Source: Isoetes taiwanensis
Lineage: Eukaryota; Streptophyta; Lycopodiopsida; Isoetales; Isoetaceae
DNA length: 64,000 nt
Assembly (NCBI GenBank): GCA_021234155.1
Contig: JAJEKV010000074.1
Span: 1,018,154 to 1,082,153, forward strand
Reading direction: 5' to 3'
Shown here one piece after another: positions 6,475 to 38,487 of this stretch; positions within the stretch are counted from its first letter, which is position 1, and each line of letters starts with the position of its first letter. The notes beneath the pieces are model-generated. The model did not search any database. It saw only the letters and a program-made list of their open reading frames with translations, and had not been told where the DNA came from. The translations under genes were made by a program, and so were the position numbers.

Positions 6475-8151
6475 TCAGGATCGACGAAAAAATCGCCGGA
6501 GTTTGCCTCCGTCGATCCGATCGAGCAATTTCTTAGCTCCGGAAGGAGCCTCCATATCTGGGAGCTTGCCTGGGCTATGGCGGAGCAGAGTTTTCCTAAG
6601 TTTGGAGCTCGGGATCAGGGCATACAGTGCAGATATGGTGGAAAATTGCTTCGGCGTGCCCTGATTATTCGTATCCAAAAGCTTCGCAATCGAATTAACC
6701 CCTCCCGGTTCTGCCATCAAATTTTTTCTGTTGCTCTCCACAAGCAGTAGACTCGCCAGTGCCGCTGCAGCACATTCCTGGCCCTGATTGGGCTTCGATT
6801 CCAGCATTTTTATCAAATGCGGCATGCACCCTGCATCGCCCAATTGCTTCCTGATCTCTGAACAGGTCGCAATTTGGGAAATTGTTGCAGCGGCGATCTG
6901 TTTTGAGGACGACGGCCCCGATCGAAGAAACCCAGCAATTTTTTGCACGAAGCCAGAGGATTGAAGCAATTTTGCGTTGGAGGACGACATGGCCAGATTC
7001 TTTAAAACCCCCAAAGCAATTTCTTTGGCTTTGGATCCGTTTGCAGAGTCTAAGAACCGGAGCAGAGGCTCAATTCCGCCCATTTTTGCAATAACCAATC
7101 TGGTTCTTTCGTCGTTTGTGGATAAATTCTGCAGAGCAGAGGCGGCATTTTCCTGCGCTGCTGCAGAGCCGGATTTGATCAATTTGATCAACACAGGAAT
7201 GCCCGTTTCCTGCACAATCGAATGCCGGATTTCGGCTATGGAAGACAGATTTCTGAGACATCCTGCTGCGGATTCTTGAGCTCTTGGTGTGCCGGATCTG
7301 CAGATTTCTATCAGAGAAGAAATGCCCCCTTGTGCAGCAACCGATTTTGAATTTTCTGGCGTGTAAGTAAGAATCTGGATCGCCGCTGCGTATTTTTCTT
7401 TCGCAATCGAGCTGCCGGATTCTAATAACCGGACCAAAGGGGCTAAACAACCTTCCAAAACAATCTGATGCTCCCAATTTCCTGCTAAAATTAGCGCGCA
7501 AACCGCCGCTGCAGCTTTTTCTCTGATCGCCGGAATGCTTGAATCAAGCATATGTACCAGAGGAGGAATTCCGCCCTGCGCTGCAATAATCTGCAGATTT
7601 GTAAGATTTTCCTCCTCCTCCATCAAATCCGTCAAGGAATTTAACGCCTTCTGCTTCGATTGAAGGCTTCCGATCTGCAGCCTTGCTATTAAATCCTTGA
7701 TTGTCCATCTCAGAACTTCTCTGCTTACTCCCAAATTGGATCTGCGCCCATTTTCTCGCATCAAACTGTTGCTCAACATTAGCTTGCAATCGTGAACGTG
7801 CTGATTTAATTTTCCTGCTAGCATATCTAGATTGCTCTGCGTCTGCAGCTTGCCAAAATAACTCAAATCTATGCATTTTTTCGCCTCAGATCTGCATTCT
7901 CTCAGCGTTCCAACAATTGATGCCAATAAATCTATGCAAATCCTGTTTTCCAGCTCAAAAACTGGCGATTTGGACAGATTTTCGATCTGGCCATATAATT
8001 CTTCGGCGCGGTAACGAAGAATTTTCCATCTGCCGATGAATGCCTTCACTAAATTCGCATCATTTAACACACTGGGCAACAAATCCTTCACAGTTTCTAG
8101 CAATTCTTCTGCGCAGAACAGAGCAATGTTTTCTTCTCTATACTGTTCCAT
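6475..8151 (-). CDS. ARM-repeat protein (At2g45720/At1g01830-like family)
   Basis: An intact single-exon gene of 558 codons, starting with ATG at 8151. Residues 1-135 are helical and cysteine-containing, without a U-box. A linker with WTIKDLIARLQIGSLQ follows near residue 150, and then a continuous set of armadillo repeats to about residue 520, with repeated 'AQGGIPPLV', 'LLESGS' and 'AAAALASLL' cores. The C-terminus, GAKKLLDRIDGGKLRRFFRR, and the length (about 550-575) match the plant ARM-repeat family of At2g45720 and At1g01830, often labelled VAC8-like. ARM solenoids bind protein partners; I know of no settled biochemical role for this family, and no catalytic site is present. There is no signal peptide or membrane segment. 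The frame is uninterrupted and the neighbours are all repeats, so it is probably a functional host gene with its own promoter. Confidence 0.92.
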   Translation of the reverse strand: MEQYREENIALFCAEELLETVKDLLPSVLNDANLVKAFIGRWKILRYRAEELYGQIENLSKSPVFELENRICIDLLASIVGTLRECRSEAKKCIDLSYFGKLQTQSNLDMLAGKLNQHVHDCKLMLSNSLMRENGRRSNLGVSREVLRWTIKDLIARLQIGSLQSKQKALNSLTDLMEEEENLTNLQIIAAQGGIPPLVHMLDSSIPAIREKAAAAVCALILAGNWEHQIVLEGCLAPLVRLLESGSSIAKEKYAAAIQILTYTPENSKSVAAQGGISSLIEICRSGTPRAQESAAGCLRNLSSIAEIRHSIVQETGIPVLIKLIKSGSAAAQENAASALQNLSTNDERTRLVIAKMGGIEPLLRFLDSANGSKAKEIALGVLKNLAMSSSNAKLLQSSGFVQKIAGFLRSGPSSSKQIAAATISQIATCSEIRKQLGDAGCMPHLIKMLESKPNQGQECAAAALASLLLVESNRKNLMAEPGGVNSIAKLLDTNNQGTPKQFSTISALYALIPSSKLRKTLLRHSPGKLPDMEAPSGAKKLLDRIDGGKLRRFFRRS

Positions 8152-28421: not shown

Positions 28422-30206
28422 ATGGGGTTAGAAGTTATAAGAGACCAGCAGAAGGCAGCAGCATTCTGCATGGGAGTGCATGAAGAAATCGGTATTCTGG
28501 CATGCAGGGAAAAACTGGAGATCATCAATAAAGACTATATGAATGGAAGAGCCAATGACAGGGACTGGGTTTGGAATACATTCGGCTACATGCAGGAACT
28601 AGACAACACCCTTTACAAGCTTATCACAGTTAAACAGGGGCACACTGAAACGGACTGCTGCAGCCTCAAGAATAGTATCTTCAGGGCCTACATGGATGAG
28701 ATGCTAGCAAAAGTTAAGAACCTGATCATTCAATGGGATGGGTTAAGAGAAACTTCAAACGCCAGTATCAGGCTCATAAAGAGATGGGAAGAAGCCGAGG
28801 ACAATGTAATTGAAAGACACAGGAAAATCTTTAGGCAAGTTCTAGTGTTGAACGAACCCTTGGAAGGGATTTCAACATCCCTTGAGGTTTATCAGCTAAG
28901 AGGCAAAAAATCGGCGAAAACGTGCAAAATCAAGGATTCAAACGGATTCTTCAACCCGGAAGAGGTGAACTCATGCGATTGTGGGAATTGTGAGGAGATC
29001 AGGCTATCTGCGCTAAATGTGCCGAAAACGAAGATCCGAGAGAACAAAATTAGCAACTCCATCCCCATAGTCGGCAAGAATGACAAAATAAAAGGTCCAC
29101 CTTCTATTCCCTCTTATAAAAATATTCTTATGAATGATACACCTTCTGTTTCTCAACCGACTAACCCAGGGAATCAGAATACAGTCAGTGGAGAATTTAT
29201 AGATTTGTTTGGTGTTTCGGACTCTTCTGCTACTGACATGTTTTTCAGGAATGCTATTCTTATACATTTCCCGCGCATTTGCCCTAATCAAGGGGAAATT
29301 AAGAATTGGATCACTACGTCCCAGCACATTCCTATCCTATCCATTCTTAAGCTGGATAAGAAGACCTTCCAAATTGTCTGTAGAGATGAGATCTGTGTCA
29401 AGCAAATTCTAAGGAGGAAGCTGGATTTCATTAACAATGCTCCCTTCTATATTATGAACTGGTCTCCCAATTTCATACCAGGAATGACGGAGGAAATCCA
29501 AACATCTACTTGGTTGTCTTTCCCGAATCTCCCTCCCGCATTCTGGACCCGATCCCATCTGAATGCCCTGTGTGAACCTTTAGGGGAGGTCCTCGAAATT
29601 ATCATTCCCCAAACTAACTTCCCCTCAGTGTGCATATCTAAGAAAATCAATTCCGAGTGGAAGAGGAAGATCAAGATCAGAGTCAGGGCCGATGAGTTCC
29701 TGGATCTCACTTCTAAATGGCCTATCCAAGCACCTGAGTCAGCTTCGAACCAAAAGAATCCCAAACAGGTTTGGATCCCGAAAGCCAATAATAAGGATAA
29801 TACAGAGCTAAACAGGGTTGACGAAGAACCTGATATGAATACCACACAGACTCAGATTATCCCTGATCAAAGAGAGGCTTTTGATGATCCCCCTTCAAAG
29901 ATGGAAATTCAAGACGATATGGTAGTTCTCATCAAAAACATCAACCTATCGGTGAGAATTGACACAGGTGACCTTGTTTTCACCTTTCCTAAGAACTATG
30001 AGTCCACACAACAGGAAAATGATGATGACACTCAAAGGGAAGCTCAAAGAATTGAGAACAATCCCGACATGGAAGACATAGGTTGGAATACTGTTGACAG
30101 AAAAAAGGGCAGAGGTAAGAAGAAACTTTATTTTGGCCCAAGCAGATCAAGCCCAAGGAAGCAGACTATCCAAGCGGGGATGGTCTTAGGAAAATATAGG
30201 TATTAA
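28422..30206 (+). CDS. L1 retrotransposon ORF1 protein with DUF4283-like domain
   Basis: An intact frame of 594 codons starting with ATG. Residues 1-200 are helical, cysteine-containing and of unknown function. Residues 275-430 resemble the DUF4283 domain of plant L1 ORF1 and zinc-knuckle proteins, with blocks NAPFYIMNWSPNFIPG and TWLSFPNLPPAFWT. No CCHC knuckle is visible after it. The C-terminus is acidic, then basic (KKGRGKKKLYFG). ORF1 proteins coat the element RNA and help target-primed reverse transcription. The stop TAA (30204-30206) overlaps the ATG of ORF2 by one base. An uninterrupted 1.8-kb frame suggests a fairly young insertion, or one copied from a young source. Confidence 0.8.
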   Translation: MGLEVIRDQQKAAAFCMGVHEEIGILACREKLEIINKDYMNGRANDRDWVWNTFGYMQELDNTLYKLITVKQGHTETDCCSLKNSIFRAYMDEMLAKVKNLIIQWDGLRETSNASIRLIKRWEEAEDNVIERHRKIFRQVLVLNEPLEGISTSLEVYQLRGKKSAKTCKIKDSNGFFNPEEVNSCDCGNCEEIRLSALNVPKTKIRENKISNSIPIVGKNDKIKGPPSIPSYKNILMNDTPSVSQPTNPGNQNTVSGEFIDLFGVSDSSATDMFFRNAILIHFPRICPNQGEIKNWITTSQHIPILSILKLDKKTFQIVCRDEICVKQILRRKLDFINNAPFYIMNWSPNFIPGMTEEIQTSTWLSFPNLPPAFWTRSHLNALCEPLGEVLEIIIPQTNFPSVCISKKINSEWKRKIKIRVRADEFLDLTSKWPIQAPESASNQKNPKQVWIPKANNKDNTELNRVDEEPDMNTTQTQIIPDQREAFDDPPSKMEIQDDMVVLIKNINLSVRIDTGDLVFTFPKNYESTQQENDDDTQREAQRIENNPDMEDIGWNTVDRKKGRGKKKLYFGPSRSSPRKQTIQAGMVLGKYRY

Positions 30207-31627
30207 TGGATAAAGAGATTAGTTGTGTTACCTGGAATCTTCAGGGAATCAATAGCATCATTAAAAGGGAAAGACTGAAGGTTTGCCTCTCATCCCTCAA
30301 CCCTAACTTTCTTTTCATACAGGAACACAAATTGCATGATTCTGATCATGAGAGAACTATAAGTAGAATTCTTCCTCCTAATTATAGCATATGGTCTATC
30401 CCCGCTAACGATTCTTCTGCAGGTATAGCGATAGCTTGGAGAAATTGTCTAAATATGTCTGATACTTACATGATTAATAGTAGGGATGGCAGGTGGCAGA
30501 TTCTTCTTTGCACCATTTTTAGGACTAAGCTTGCCCTGGTAAACATTTATGCTTTCAATAATCCAGTAGAGAGAGTGGATATTTGGAAGAAGGTGAAGAA
30601 TAGTTTAGATAATCTGGAGTTTGATGAATGCATCCTAGGAGGAGATTTAAACATGGTTACTAACAGTTTTATGAAAAACAAGAATTTCATACCACTTGGC
30701 AGGAATGAGAAGGTCGCTTGGCTGGAGCTCACTAGAAGCCACGGCCTAACTTTAGCCAGAACCAAGCCAAATTCCTATAGCTGGACTGACAAGAGAATAG
30801 ATCCCAGCTTGTGTCTTCATGACAGGTATTACCTTTCTGAAAATCTCTGGAACCATAGCAGCAGAGTCAACAATTTGGAAGGGTACACCCTCTCGGATCA
30901 TTTTCCTCAACAGTTGAGAATTATGGCTAACAATCAGTCCAAAAAGAAGAGGAAAACCTATTTCAAGCTCAACACCAGCCTTCTCGACCATGAAGATTTC
31001 ATGGATAAGTTACAGGAGGTACTACACAATTTTCCCAAGCCCAATGGACATTCTGGATGGATGTTCTGGTGGATCCAAGTGGCTAAGGCAATAAAGAAAT
31101 GGCTTAAGGAATGGGGGAAAAAAGTTCATCTTAGTAAACTCTCCTCCCTTCAGAATCTGAGAGACAGTCTTCCCAATGCTCCTGAAGAGGAAAAGGACAA
31201 TATCAAAGCGGAAATTAAGAAGGAAGAAATTAGGATAGCTGAAGGATGGAAGCTTAAGGCTAAAATAAGGGAGATAAAGGATGACGAGAGAAGTAGCTCT
31301 AAATTCTTCTTTGTAAAAGCTAAGGGCAGAATCAAGAAGAATCATATATTCGAAATAAGAGTTGGGGATGAAGAAATCTCAAATGAAGATCAGATTAAAG
31401 TAGCTGTTGCTGACCACTTTAGAAAGATTATGGGGACCAATCAGGACAGCTCCCAGGATACCATGAACAGGTTCATCAATCTCCAAGCAAAGGTTAGTGT
31501 GGAGGAAAATTTAAGTATAGAGAAGCCATTTTCCAAAGAGGAGCTTTTTCAAATTGCAAAAGACATGGAGAGAGGTAAAAGTCCCGGCCCTGATGGACTC
31601 TCGGTTGAATTTTTCATCAAAGTTTAG
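30206..31627 (+). CDS. L1 ORF2: endonuclease and start of reverse transcriptase, truncated
   Basis: 473 codons from ATG at 30206. The endonuclease domain shows ISCVTWNLQGIN (residues 3-14), FIQEHKL, GGDLNMV near residue 146 and SDHFP near 230, all expected of the L1 EEP nuclease that nicks target DNA. The linker leads to GKSPGPDGLSVEFF, the entry of the L1 reverse transcriptase. A stop codon follows at 31625. Without it the frame continues with SFITLIPKTEEI to about 31740, where L1 similarity ends, well before the catalytic YADD. The element therefore lost its 3' half, which is unusual because LINEs are normally truncated at the 5' end. A later deletion or capture into the CACTA element explains this better than incomplete insertion. 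Confidence 0.8.
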   Translation: MDKEISCVTWNLQGINSIIKRERLKVCLSSLNPNFLFIQEHKLHDSDHERTISRILPPNYSIWSIPANDSSAGIAIAWRNCLNMSDTYMINSRDGRWQILLCTIFRTKLALVNIYAFNNPVERVDIWKKVKNSLDNLEFDECILGGDLNMVTNSFMKNKNFIPLGRNEKVAWLELTRSHGLTLARTKPNSYSWTDKRIDPSLCLHDRYYLSENLWNHSSRVNNLEGYTLSDHFPQQLRIMANNQSKKKRKTYFKLNTSLLDHEDFMDKLQEVLHNFPKPNGHSGWMFWWIQVAKAIKKWLKEWGKKVHLSKLSSLQNLRDSLPNAPEEEKDNIKAEIKKEEIRIAEGWKLKAKIREIKDDERSSSKFFFVKAKGRIKKNHIFEIRVGDEEISNEDQIKVAVADHFRKIMGTNQDSSQDTMNRFINLQAKVSVEENLSIEKPFSKEELFQIAKDMERGKSPGPDGLSVEFFIKV

Positions 31628-33016: not shown

Positions 33017-33146
33017 TAAGGGGGGGATTCATACCACCACCTTAGGAAAAATACATAAAGATAAGATATGGGCCCGACAAAATACAGGTTAAACATTCAA
33101 TTAAACACCTTAGTAAAAGGGTTAAACATTCGATTAAAATACCCTA

Positions 33147-33172
33147 GGGGAGACCGGCCATGTTTTGCGCAG
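33147..33172 (+). repeat. Left terminal inverted repeat of the pogo-like element
   Basis: A 26-bp arm, preceded by TA at 33145-33146. It matches the reverse complement of 36818-36843 at 25 of 26 positions. Confidence 0.9.
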
Positions 33173-33591
33173 GGCCCTAAATCGGGATGCTTGAGCCCTG
33201 CGTTCACGACATGGATGCCCTTCATTTCCGCATCATCGTTCGACCATTTCCGCATCGGGCGTTGACCATTTGCGCACCGGCGTTCGACCATTTGCGCACC
33301 TCGTTCCAGCCATAGCACAAGCCCGCCATAGCACAACCCCGCCATAATTTTGTCTTAAACAAGATTGAACGCCCAAGATGGCCACCACCTTACACATGCG
33401 TTGAGCATGGCCAAGCACAGAGCCGCGAGAACGAGAGAGCACCTGAGAAGAGAGCACGTAGATCCGATGGACAAGAGCACGAGAAGAGAGCGGGGGATCT
33501 AAACGTGTTGCAGCCAAAGAAGCCAAAGAAGAGGAAGATTAGGGAAGGCAATAAAGGTGAATGAAGGAGCTATCTTAGACAGAGAGAGGTA

Positions 33592-34900
33592 AATGGAGTG
33601 ATGATGACATGAAGAGGGGCAATCGAACTTGTTGAGGGGAATGTGATGAGCATAAGAGCAAAGTGCAGAATTTAGCATCCCCGAGTCTACAATTAGAAGT
33701 TGGCTTTATGGTAGAGTGAATGTAAAGCATGGTAAGCATCCTATAGCCATGACAGCAGAAGAAGAATCGACTTGGTAGAATGGGCATTAGAGAGGGCGAT
33801 CGGGGAATGCCTTTGACTCTAGATATGTTGAAGGAGTTTGTGGCTGAAATATGCCTTGATAGACCAACTCCATTTAGGGATGGAGTTCCAGGACACAAGT
33901 GGTGGAAGCTTTTCAAAGGAAGGCATCCGTAGATAGCAATAAGATCTGCTGAAACGCTGGATTCTCGCCAGGGCGGAGCACTAACAACCGCTACTCTAGC
34001 TAAGTTCTACGATGATTTTGAGAAGGTGTTGGATGAGTTCAAGTTTCCACCATCTAGAATTTGGAATGCGGACGAAACTGGTGTCCAAGCTGGTAAGGTT
34101 TCTGGAATGAAGGTTATTGCCAAGAAAGGAAAGAGGAACGTGCATGAAGTTGTGATGAGAAATAGAGAATGGGTGACAAGTGCCTACATGTGTCAATGCA
34201 TGGCTTTCCACTTCCTAGTCTCTACATCTTCAAAGGAGAGAGGATCAGAGATGACTATGTATCTAGATGTGAACCAGTTGCTGTGATGGCTTGTCAGGGT
34301 GAAGCATGGATGACAAAAGAGCTTTTTAAAAGTTGGTTAATTGATCATTTCGCAAGAAGGTGCCGGGAGCTTGGGTCCGAAAGTACACCACATTTGCTAG
34401 TGCTTGATGGCCACAAGACTCATGTGGATCTTGACACTATCTTGGCAGCCAAAGAGGTAGGAGTGCATCTTTTTTATTTTGCCACCTCACACTTCACATA
34501 AAACTGCAGCCCTTGGATGTGTCGGTGTTTGGCCCTTTCAAGAAGTGCTTTAAGAAGGAAAGAGCAATTTATATGTTAAAACACCGTTATCTTTGAACCA
34601 AGCAAGCAAGACACGGCTACAATTATCTACTGAGCTTTGAAGTCATCCATGACGCTCGTAACATCCTCTCGGGTTTTAGATCAACGGGTTTAGTGCCCTT
34701 TGTGAAGGGCAAAGTGACACCACAAGCCGAGGCAATTGGAGATGATGGTAGGGAAGTGGAGTTGCAACCATGGGAGCATGGAGATTACAATCCAAATGAT
34801 GCTGAAAATGAAGGTGCAAAGAGCCCCCCGATGCTAATCAAGTGTTCCCCAATCAATTGTATGCGTGCGGACCAAAGAACCATGAAGAAGGTAACAATCA
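33592..34900 (+). pseudogene. Pogo/CENP-B-type transposase, frameshifted
   Basis: Domains in order: a psq-type helix-turn-helix (WSDDDMKR, AIELVEGNVMSIRAKCRI, SIPESTIRSWLYGR); a CENP-B-type second HTH (TAEEES, LVEWALERAIG, PFRDGVPGHKWWKLFKGRHP); then the DDE_1 catalytic domain. Catalytic acids are visible in RIWNADETGVQ (first D), HLLVLDGHKTHVD (second D) and LQPLDVSVFGPFK (third D), the DDD set of the pogo group. EAWMTKELFKSWLIDHF and NILSGFRSTGLVPF complete the family pattern. At least five frame changes and one in-frame stop (after KGRHP) prevent expression. The element's DNA-binding domain would recognise its terminal repeats and the catalytic domain would cut and join them. Confidence 0.85.
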
Positions 34901-35086
34901 AAATTTTGAGCAAAATGTTGTTGAGGCAGCACATAGCAATGTTCTTCTAAATTGCAATGTGCCTGAAAACCAAGCACCTAACATTGCAAGGCCTTTGCCA
35001 CATGCAAGCACTGTTGTACATCACTCTTCTCCTCATGTTAATGTTGCTTATAGATCTGCTCTACCTACAAACCCACGTACACACCA

Positions 35087-36133
35087 ATGTCTAGAGCATT
35101 TCAACCCCAAAACAATGACTCTATATCTCAGCCTGAAACCTCAAGAAGACGAAATCTTCCCTTGCTGGCTGGAGTGCATCATGTTAGCTCTGAACAATGG
35201 TGTCAAGCAATCAGGGACGAACAGCAAAGGAAGGCTAGGAATGAGGAGGAAAAGAAGAGAAAGTTAGAAGAGAAGCTAGCTGCACAAGCAGCAAAGAAAT
35301 TGGCAAGGGAGGAGGCTTTGGAAAGATGCAAAAAGAGAAAGGAAGAGAGGGAAGCTAGGAAAAGAAGTGAAGAAGCATGGGAGGTAGGCTGTAGAAGGTT
35401 TAGGGATCTAATATATGGACCTCATAGGCATGGGAGGCCTATCTTGAATGGTGTAAGCCCTTGGATACCAGTTAACAAGGATGCTATGGAGGCTAGAAGG
35501 CAAGCAAGGGACAGGTTAAGAGCAAAGAGGGCAGCTAGAGAGAATGAAGGGCATGCAGGTTGTGACATACGATTTGTGGCTAGTAGCCAAATGGAAGAAC
35601 AAGAGAGCTGCCCGCCATTATTCCAAGATAGTCAAGTTGAAGAAGAATTGCCTCCAAGTCCTGTATTGTATAATGCAATTAGGAATATGTCTCCATTCTC
35701 TGGCTCTATGGTAGGATGCAGCTTAGAAGACACTCATATCTGTTCTCAAGACCATATGGATGCTGTTCATGTATCAATTGATGAGATGATACCACCTGCA
35801 AGAAATGAATCAGCATCACATGCGCATGTTAATGTGGACACTCAAACATGGGTCAGGTTTGCTGATGTTAATAGTGGTGTTCCAGATGCCACAGTGCACA
35901 ACTTGGCTAAAGCAAGGCTGATCCGAGGCTTTGTTGAAGATGGTAGGCCTCATGACATAATTGAGAAGGCAAAAGGGATGGATGATGGCTGGGCAAGAAC
36001 TTACAGAGCGCTACTTGCAAATGTAAGTCCAAGTTTGCATGTAAGTTTGATGTTTCTACTTTACCTCTCTTAATCTGGTACTTCTTTGCAGGCAACAGAT
36101 GTGGAGATAGAAAGCTCCTCGGAAGAAAGCTAG
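35087..36133 (+). CDS. C-terminal or second protein of the pogo-like element, coiled coil
   Basis: An intact frame of over 310 codons. Residues 45-110 are a highly charged probable coiled coil (EEEKKRKLEEKLAAQAAKKL, then RKRSEEAWEVGCRRFRD). Next come a basic segment ARRQARDRLRAKRAARE and an acidic, serine-rich remainder. The frame runs to LLAN, followed by a good 69-bp GT-AG intron (36023-36091) and a short last exon ATDVEIESSSEES ending in TAG at 36131-36133. It probably continues the transposase frame interrupted upstream between 34.7 and 35.1 kb; alternatively it is a separate accessory protein. It has no homolog I recognise. Confidence 0.55.
36023..36091 (+). other. Probable intron in the pogo-like element's last coding block
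   Basis: It begins GTAAGTCC and ends TTCTTTGCAG, is 69 bp long with a pyrimidine-rich end, and its removal replaces a 17-codon tail with a short acidic ending. Confidence 0.55.
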
Positions 36134-36273
36134 GTCACATGATGCATGTCTTCTTTGTTGTGGCTGGTCAATGCTACTTCTTGTAAACATTGGTCAGTTT
36201 GTGTGCGTTTTCAAATTTGCACATAAACAATTTTACATAGACCTTTGTCTATTGCAAAATAGCACATTTTCAG

Positions 36274-36385
36274 AAACTTGTATGCCAAGACTGCTAAATT
36301 GTTGCTGAATTGTTGCTAAATTGTTGCTGAAACTTGTATGCCAAGACTGCTAAATTGTTGTTGTTAAATTGTTGCTGAATTGTTG
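36274..36385. repeat. 56-bp tandem duplication in pogo-like 3' region
   Basis: AAACTTGTATGCCAAGACTG followed by CTAAATTGTTG repeats starts at 36274 and again at 36330. The TTGCTGAATTG and TTGCTAAATTG phrases are themselves repeated, indicating slippage. Confidence 0.8.
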
Positions 36386-36817
36386 TTTGATTCTTAGGTG
36401 TGAATGCATTCTGTCCTTTTCTTAGCAAGATGTATGCAAAAGGTTGATATTCAGATGCGCAAATTGAGATATGCATGTGCGCAGTTTGTAGCAGGATAAG
36501 ACATAATTGTTTGTTAATAGGTGAGCAAATGATGGTGGGTTTGAGAGCAGTAATGTTGTTTGCTGCGCAATTGATGGGAGTTTCATGCGCAATAGATGGG
36601 AGTTTTATGCGCAATGCAGTGCGCAATTGATGGGTCTGTGGTGCGTAACCAGGGTTCTCAGACCCCCCTGTGTTTGAGCAGCTGTAACTTGCAAGTGGCT
36701 AATCTGTAGACCCTAAATCTGGCATCTATTTGTAGCTTAGATTTCAGGCTTTCAGATGAACTATTTCTTGTGGCAAAATTCCACACCTCGTGCCCAAAAT
36801 TGCGTTTGCGCCCTTAA

Positions 36818-36843
36818 CTGCGCAAAACATGGCCTGTCTCCCC
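36818..36843 (-). repeat. Right terminal inverted repeat of the pogo-like element
   Basis: Mirror of 33147-33172 with one mismatch at position 9. It is followed by TA at 36844-36845. Confidence 0.9.
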
Positions 36844-37307
36844 TAACTCCAGTTTTGCCGGAACTCTTCCTCTCTTCTTCCATCTCATTACAATCTTCGA
36901 TCTTCATTTCTTCTTGCAGGTGCAGTAGTAGAGGGCGGTGCCTCAGAGGACTTCTGTTTTTAAATGGCAAGTGCATCGCTATGGCGACTGTTATACATTT
37001 CTGTGCCCGGTTGCTTCGATTCCGGTAGAGCAAGGTCGTATATCTATGCGTTAAACAGAAAGCCAAATTGAGCTAAAGGTGTATTTATGGCTCCAGCGAA
37101 GAGCCTAACTATTTGTTTTTCAAAGCCTGCAGTCTGCATGATGCCAACAAGACGAAAGCAGAGAGGTACAAATTACTGCGCTATTTTTAGCTTCTTTAGT
37201 TCCACATTTTAATCTCTTATGCGTCCCATTCATTGCCGGTGGGTCTGTGGTAAATGCAGAGTAGTTCATTTCATTTTTTCTCCTTGCAAATGAATGTTTT
37301 GAGTTAG

Positions 37308-38487
37308 AGCATCTTCGTGGTCATGGAGTACATGGAACATGATCTGAAGGGGCTTATGGAAAGCATGAAGCAGCCTTTTGGTCAAAATGAAGTCAAATGC
37401 CTAATGCTTCAGTTATTCGATGGCGTAAAATATCTTCACAATATCTCCACAACAATTGAATGCCTCACTGGTACAAACTTCTATTGCAGTTTATAAACTC
37501 TGTTTGCTGTTTTTCTTCAGTTATTACAATGTCCTTTTTTTTATGAGCAACTTGCAGAGAATTAAAGGCTTCCAACCTGCTTTAAACAATATAGGAGAAC
37601 TAAAGATTCGTGATTTTGGATTGGCTCATCAATATTATGTCCACTTAAGACACAACAGTAGAGCTGTTGTTACACTTTGGTACAGGTAAGAAGTGGCTTC
37701 AGCTCTCTACGTGGCTTTTGTATCTAATATCTAGTTGAACATAAGACAGTTGAAATACTGCTTGGGGGCAAGGAAATATTCTGCAGGAGTTGATATGTTG
37801 GTCCCTGTTTTATAAGATATATTAAAGATAACTTGCTTTGCAGATACAACAGAGACTAAGAGAAAATTTCCCGCGAAGATCCTTTTATGAAAGACCCACG
37901 CTCTCTGAAAGTGAGTTTGACCTTCTTAATTGTTGTTTCTTATTCAGAAAGTGAGTTTCTCTATCTTCATTATCAACACGTTAAAAGAATACACAATAAT
38001 CCTCTTCCATTTTATGAACACTAAATCATGTTGTGCCATGAGCTGGTTAGCTATTGTATGGGCAGATATTACTTATGTATAAATAATTATTGTATCAATT
38101 ATCTTATCCAAAATTTTATACCCTTTCAAGATCTTTTAATGCTCGTTAGTGCTAAGCAATTTTAACGCCAATCATTGATGTGACTGTAACAGGCTTGCAG
38201 CAAATAACACAACAGAAGAAGCTTTGAAGCATGATTGAGGTAAACTGAAAAAGATCATGCCAATTTTCCCAGTTTGCAGTGGGCATGACAGGTAGATACT
38301 GCTATTGTTCTGCAATGTCTATTTTTCTTGCAATGTCTTTCCTAGTTTTATGCACATCTTCTTTTCTTTTGCCTTATGTATTAGGTGTTTAAGGAGGCTA
38401 ATGAAGAGTCCAGATCCGTTAGAGAAACAAAGAAAACGAAAACTTCCGCAGGGTTGTGAGCTGGACACATGTGGTCTTGTTAGTTGA
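37308..38487 (+). pseudogene. CDKG-like: CDKG/CDK11-type cyclin-dependent kinase, multi-exon pseudogene
   Basis: Six blocks in the order of a plant G-type CDK. They are [19 protein letters not shown] with the following KYLH region (37308-37451); after an acceptor at 37557, RIKGFQPALNNIGELKIRDF to VVTLWYR with a GTAAG donor (37558-37685); EILLGGKE and SAGVDM with a frameshift (37750-37795); RLRENFPRRSFYERPTLSE (37844-37935); TEEALKHD-stop-GKLKKIMPIFP (about 38215-38290); and RLMKSPDPLEKQRKRKLPQG ending GLVS-stop (38385-38487). Introns are kept, so it arose by DNA duplication, not retrotransposition. The HRD catalytic loop is largely lost: RDLK reads RIKG and DFG survives. The N-terminal lobe is missing. 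CDKGs act in splicing-linked transcription and meiosis; this copy cannot function. Confidence 0.85.

Follow-up and report, generated by a model that had tools for sequence, protein, structure and literature searches.

What kind of element occupies positions 33147-36843 of a 64,000-nucleotide stretch of the Isoetes taiwanensis genome (contig JAJEKV010000074.1 of assembly GCA_021234155.1, positions 1,018,154 to 1,082,153; this whole stretch is referred to as the window), and does it represent a plant lineage of its own? The original prediction, made from the letters of the DNA, was a structurally complete pogo-like DDE_1 transposon with unusual ends, perhaps of an undescribed plant lineage. Our analysis indicates that the window copy is a degraded member of what is very probably a multicopy family of cut-and-paste DNA transposons with TA as insertion target, which belongs to the pogo superfamily, is Fot-like and of the DD35D type (a catalytic Asp triad with a second spacing of 35) and resides in this lycophyte. 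The call of a pogo-type DDE_1 transposon with a TA target was right, as judged by the domains, the ends and the empty sites of sister copies.

The element is delimited by two terminal inverted repeats (TIRs), each located by inverted-pair search, sister-copy comparison and end-pattern search:

33145..33172, plus strand: left TIR with TA (TA followed by GGGGAGACCGGCCATGTTTTGCGCAG)
36818..36845, minus strand: right TIR with TA

This pair is the strongest of eight inverted pairs in the region, spanning 28 nt with the TA and being 96% complementary. Without the TA, the repeat is 26 nt long with one mismatch, which bears out the predicted 26-bp repeats. The single difference between the right and left repeats (A for C) is seen again at the right ends of sister copies. 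The 1.66-Gb genome contains 11 near-full-length family copies, including that of the window, with 89-100% identity, in addition to partial or more diverged matches. TA and a recognisable TIR are present at both ends in 10 of the 11, several with small indels. When up to two mismatches are allowed, the pattern of the left end occurs genome-wide at 19 places (10 forward, 9 reverse), compared to none for the reversed control, and all 19 are ends of family copies or of their derivatives. Ends that other copies did not share had been named in advance as the finding that would tell against the element; the family copies carry the same ends. The sole near-full-length copy without both tips is L003. 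Its oriented 3' end has two tandem copies of the right inverted-repeat core, CTGCGCAAAACATGGCC, and no true tip, which looks like the joining of two ends.

Insertion into TA was established from unoccupied paralogues. The flank pairs of 15 copies were joined and the joins were searched against the genome, the best 40 of 654 candidates being scored. An unoccupied paralogue across the junction was identified for nine of the 15 insertion sites (L001, L002, L004, L005, L006, L007, L008, L012 and L020). Twelve empty loci were examined letter by letter; ten have a single TA at the junction and two have CA. Counted per insertion site, TA is found for eight of nine, that of L008 after a one-base shift of the right end, while L002 has only CA. 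Thus, we conclude that the family inserts at TA targets, with the TA target site duplication typical of the pogo superfamily. The predicted TA duplication therefore stands for the sister copies; for the window's own site, no empty counterpart was among the matches listed. A reading of the window family as chance repeats was likewise rejected on the empty sites.

At least five internally deleted derivatives of 0.8 kb are present, one of them without the first 65 nt. Two of them, L017 and L018, do not differ in their 826-bp bodies and lie between unrelated flanks (of 100 positions, 30 and 25 are alike), which argues that they moved recently. Their shared body is chimeric; it is the same as L003 at positions 17-226, as the window copy over its last 605 nt and as L001 over its last 553. 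The deletion break sits at a shared ACCTT and is, thus, consistent with a microhomology-mediated event. Pairs among the 11 copies (L001-L010 and window 33145-36845) share tracts of ~200-550 bp without substitution, compared to a whole-copy divergence of 4-13%. Of the 55 pairs, 30 reached the global level of ≤0.05 in a Sawyer-type test (670 polymorphic columns free of gaps, 2000 shuffles). The copies appear to be mosaics. Ectopic gene conversion, or gap repair with another copy as template, would account for this pattern, and polishing of repeats during assembly could mimic it. Divergence from the family majority is 2.7-3.9% for eight copies and 7.0-9.6% for three, but an age estimate from these values is unreliable because the copies are mosaic. 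Internal deletions are reportedly also found in pogo elements of the Lemi/Emigrant type.

The DNA-binding and catalytic parts of the transposase gene of the window copy are preserved as three remnants:

33585..33717 (approximate), plus strand: remnant of the HTH_psq domain, interrupted by frame changes (tblastn, frames; Pfam match on sister copy L002)
33737..33929 (approximate), plus strand: HTH_Tnp_Tc5 (CENP-B-type) remnant, followed by an in-frame TAG at 33930-33932 (tblastn, frames; Pfam match on L002)
33933..34640 (approximate), plus strand: catalytic region remnant, comprising the first Asp block and DDE_1, with a TGA in its later part (Pfam, tblastn, frames)

The coding sequence runs through all three frames, switching about eleven times (as judged by reading of the frames), and contains the two in-frame stops, TAG and TGA; the copy differs from the family majority by nineteen 1-bp indels. 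"Structurally complete" is, therefore, true of the ends only. The only domain of this copy that scores in Pfam is a DDE_1 piece (34169-34501, E 1.1e-10); the N-terminal part can be aligned by tblastn. Codons for the three Asp residues (34071-34073, 34406-34408 and 34516-34518) are present in the DNA, each in a different frame. Sister copies retain natural uninterrupted frames of 443 (L002), 657 (L003) and 747 residues (L014). The open reading frame (ORF) of L002 matches psq (E 9.7e-6), Tc5 (E 3.6e-7) and DDE_1 (E 5.1e-25), and the frames of L003 (P0003) and L014 (P0002), which begin past the N-terminal helix-turn-helix (HTH) region, match DDE_1. The claim that psq, a CENP-B-type HTH and a DDD catalytic domain are all present is thus realized in the natural ORF of L002 and, in the window, in the more fragmentary form just described. 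When the L014 frame is compared with that of L003, the ratio of nonsynonymous to synonymous substitution rates comes to 0.11 in the first 280 codons and 0.36 in those that follow; the transposase is under purifying selection.

The family is one of many in this genome. A protein search, in which 95 of 4373 first-look candidates were scored (the candidate number is rough and the results are lower bounds), gave at least 98 matches, mostly 47-57% identical and many without stops. A DDE_1 profile search gave at least 150 places, the best 150 of a roughly estimated 1164 candidates having been scored and all being above the cut-off. Comparison of the L002, L003 and L014 frames with 18 distant loci (21 rows in total) allowed the identification of the features expected of the pogo superfamily: DDE_1 is found in 21/21 rows with an invariant Asp triad, and the CENP-B-like HTH N-terminus is represented by Tc5 in 19/21 and psq in 18/21. 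The second Asp spacing is 35 in 19/21. In a tree of these rows, all from the Isoetes genome, 10 of the 18 inner branches are well supported, and the window family forms one clade (100/100) on a long branch. Searches for relatives outside the genome, by scans of viral contigs (with P0001 and alignment A1) and of genome contigs (with A1), returned pattern matches and no confirmed relative. Among solved structures, no match was found for P0001; the ten found for A1 were weak, fell mostly on helical or charged segments and were not used.

Convincing ends, all G-rich, were identified by a TIR script in four of the 18 distant loci (L027, L040, L030 and L031), where TA is followed by GGGTATGG twice, AGGGGAGG and GGGGGGGG. 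The tips of L027 and L040 read GGGTATGGTTGCC, and the similarity between these two loci ends exactly there; the tip of L030 is AGGGGAGGTGCT and that of L031 is GGGGGGGG.TGCCCAC. The ends of Lemi1 are of CAG type, and it was by that measure that the window ends had seemed unusual; since G-rich tips occur in all four distant loci with detectable ends, they are not unusual within the genome. For the other 14 of the 18 loci the script found no ends, for which the fetched length, decay or domestication could account. Nine distant relatives have open frames of 741-922 residues (L025, L026, L030, L031, L033, L035, L036, L037 and L038), seven of them without detected inverted repeats; these nine are candidates for active families or for domesticated genes.

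Such long open frames, together with the purifying selection and the detection of inverted repeats in only 4/18 distant loci, would suit a domesticated transposase-derived host gene or pseudogene and not a mobile element. For the window family, however, this explanation has a negligible probability, given the shared ends, the TA target, the dispersed copies and the deletion derivatives, and it is refuted by the empty sites. Domestication may still hold for some of the distant relatives.

Several observations weigh against an assignment of the family to mobile DD35D pogo elements of Fot-like kind. The second spacing deviates in two of the 21 rows, being 36 in L002, a member of the family itself, and 33 in L037. 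CENP-B_N, a mark of Tigger and pogoR in a 2020 survey of the superfamily, also matches 3/21 rows. No intact full-length transposase was found at any of 20 family loci examined, the longest frame (747 residues, L014) being without the N-terminus; as a consequence, it is the identical derivatives alone that speak for recent activity. Some of the frame breaks may be errors of the nanopore-based assembly; 1-bp indels per substitution among copies amount to 0.17-0.31, and 236 of 432 indels adjoin the same base. Finally, no empty site was among the matches listed for six of the 15 insertions (window, L010, L014, L017, L018 and L019). This is not evidence against insertion at these sites, since only the best 40 candidates were scored and the left flank of L014 is only 6 nt long.

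One unexpected feature of the ends is a pair of subterminal repeat arrays in mirror orientation, both located by repeat search and hexamer counts:

33227..33335, plus strand: left subterminal array of CCATTTGCGCA-type units, followed by two weaker CCATAGCACA units
36456..36647, minus strand: right subterminal array of CCATCAATTGCGCA-type units, in mirror orientation to the left array

On the left, TGCGCA-like sites (≤1 mismatch) lie at element positions 83, 105, 127 and 149, in steps of 22 bp. On the right, there are 12 such sites (≤1 mismatch), with 22-bp steps at 199-221, 233-255-277 and 363-385 from the right end. Exact TGCGCA occurs three times in the first 250 nt and seven times in the last 400 nt, compared to 0.17 and 0.28 expected, and once in the middle; none of 500 shuffles reached the observed count at either end. 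Its density is 14.7 per kb in the ends, against 0.12 per kb over the remainder of the window. A CCAT..TTGCGCA unit is found in the inverted repeat itself and, mirrored, in both arrays, such that the inverted repeat is the outermost unit of the series. Sister copies and deletion derivatives retain a variable share of the sites, with fewer in older copies.

Based on their sequence and arrangement, the CCAT..TTGCGCA units are probably transposase binding sites. The psq and Tc5 HTH domains would bind these units, with the outermost one occupying the inner half of either inverted repeat and the others making up the arrays inside each end, stepped by 22 bp, or about two helical turns. The long C-terminal helix described below may aid multimer formation, and the Asp triad would cut at the GGGGAGAC tips and join them to the TA target. 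The window copy, from which no transposase of its own is possible, has kept both ends and could be mobilised in trans, as could the 826-bp derivatives, which have kept ends and arrays and lost the gene. Alternatively, the TGCGCA repeats could be promoter elements or chance tandem duplications. The left array could indeed have arisen by tandem duplication of a 22-bp unit, and the other families present a mixed picture: L031 has repeated units, L030 a single repeat in two copies, L027 nothing but short two-copy repeats and L040 none. We consider this the less probable explanation, though a serious one, since the same core sits in the inverted repeats, the orientation is mirrored at both ends and the derivatives retain the core yet lose the gene. 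In the literature searched, which was not exhaustive, no paper on subterminal repeats in pogo elements was found. As binding sites, the mirrored 22-bp arrays provide a concrete and testable model of end recognition, and the family a model of array-type ends.

Downstream of the catalytic region lies a C-terminal block with a putative intron behind it:

35087..36022, plus strand: C-terminal block, the longest ATG-started frame of the copy (328 residues; open to 36073) (ORF list, alignment of relatives, structure prediction)
36023..36091, plus strand: putative GT-AG intron, from splice signals only; the last exon, 36092-36133, would end in ...ATDVEIESSSEES and a stop

A single-sequence structure prediction of the window's own C-terminal ORF gave a 76-residue helix (35189-35416) with a predicted local distance difference test score (pLDDT) of ~96 over most of its length. 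The rest of the ORF is of low confidence (mean pLDDT 54.5), so that a coiled coil is only plausible. A GCSLEDTHICSQD motif at 35714-35752 is similar in relatives. The original prediction held that a long coiled-coil C-terminal block sets the element apart; the block is present, in natural ORFs of sister copies too, but it is weakly similar in 12 of the 18 distant loci fetched. Near the C-terminus, a GCSLEETHxCSWD-like motif was noticed by eye in L026, L030, L031, L033, L035, L036 and L037.

The origin of the family can be viewed in two ways. The combination of psq and Tc5 with DD35D is of the Fot/Fot-like kind, which the part of the 2020 survey drawn on here records in fungi, Chromista, protozoa and a few algae (PMC7386202), and these hosts would be in line with a fungus or an oomycete as the source of a recent horizontal transfer. 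We regard such a transfer as improbable, given the deeply diverged relatives in the genome, with long, partly well-supported branches (10/18) and at least 150 DDE_1 places. Contamination is also unlikely, as most copies are in multi-Mb contigs and two contigs, C1031 and C1068, carry family copies together with matches to the RuBisCO small subunit (27 such matches in the genome, as befits a photosynthetic eukaryote). The deeply diverged relatives suggest long residence, although repeated arrivals could also yield diversity. A tentative reading, to which we give somewhat less than even chances, is that of an ancient lycophyte pogo lineage of the DD35D type, vertically kept, repeatedly active and separate from eudicot Lemi, whose ends are of the array type (HTH sites in 22-bp steps, the TIR being the outermost) and which is now a major group of many transposon families in Isoetes. 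If true, this would run counter to the idea that pogo hardly multiplied in land plants. The family speaks for a great expansion of pogo in a lycophyte, among early-branching land plants in which pogo had been considered rare. With at least 150 DDE_1 places in deeply split families, one of which has verified ends, target and recently moved derivatives, the question of inheritance versus transfer becomes directly testable.

Elsewhere in the window, a LINE-like (long interspersed nuclear element-like) retroelement lies upstream (28422-31627), with a 594-residue ORF containing DUF4283 and a 473-residue ORF containing an Exo_endo_phos domain, the ATG of the second beginning on the last base of the stop of the first at 30206. 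Just downstream of the element are protein kinase gene fragments (37323-37463 to about 38250; Pkinase matches weakly, with an E of 8e-4 that falls short of the family cut-off), which, by sequence, are probably a decayed cyclin-dependent-kinase-like gene. An intact 558-residue ORF on the minus strand (6475-8151) contains DUF7032 and armadillo repeats, and is presumably plant-like.

The known pogo groups differ in domain content and Asp spacing. In the part of the survey by Gao et al. (2020) used here, land-plant pogo elements are Lemi only, from 23 eudicots; Lemi has Tc5 alone or HTH_ABP1_N with Tc5 and a spacing range of DD29-42D, and Tigger and pogoR have CENP-B_N with Tc5 (PMC7386202). The Isoetes family shares with Lemi/Emigrant the superfamily, a plant host, the TA duplication and internal deletions. 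In contrast, it has psq with Tc5, and HTH_ABP1_N is absent from the 13 Pfam families matched in the 21 rows. The prediction was thus right, by domain set, that the element is not of the eudicot Lemi kind. The spacing also differs from the DD30-32D of the dicot clade 52, which the portion of Dupeyron et al. (2020) consulted places apart from the DD35D groups (33-40) that include Fot1 (PMC7325037), although the wider Lemi range of Gao et al. would admit 35.

Fot/Fot-like elements are described in the same part of the 2020 survey as having psq and/or Tc5 and DD35D, most with inverted repeats of 40-60 bp, with a TA duplication recorded for 50 Fot-like elements and no land plants among the hosts listed there (PMC7386202). 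The Isoetes family resembles them, by description and not by sequence, in psq and HTH_Tnp_Tc5, DD35D (19/21), the TA duplication and a DDE-type catalytic domain. However, its host is a land plant and its TIR is 26 bp, compared to 40-60 bp in most members, and we therefore describe it as being of Fot-like kind, short of placing it in Fot itself.

In the portion of Dupeyron et al. consulted, Clade 38, within the DD35D groups, consists of two pogo sequences of Selaginella moellendorffii, and the authors ask whether early-plant pogo reflects old inheritance or repeated horizontal transfer and call for work on early plants (PMC7325037). Our non-exhaustive literature search found no paper on pogo in Isoetes, which does not show absence. 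Of the suggested "undescribed plant lineage", a new family stands as far as the literature searched goes, and a new lineage may or may not, the comparison with the two published Selaginella sequences being one of descriptions. By their description, these two resemble the Isoetes family in a lycophyte host and a DD35D group, and differ in number, only two being reported versus at least 150 DDE_1 places in Isoetes. Judging from psq with Tc5 and DD35D, the proper comparison would be with Fot/Fot-like elements and the DD35D groups of Dupeyron et al., including Clade 38, rather than with Lemi1.

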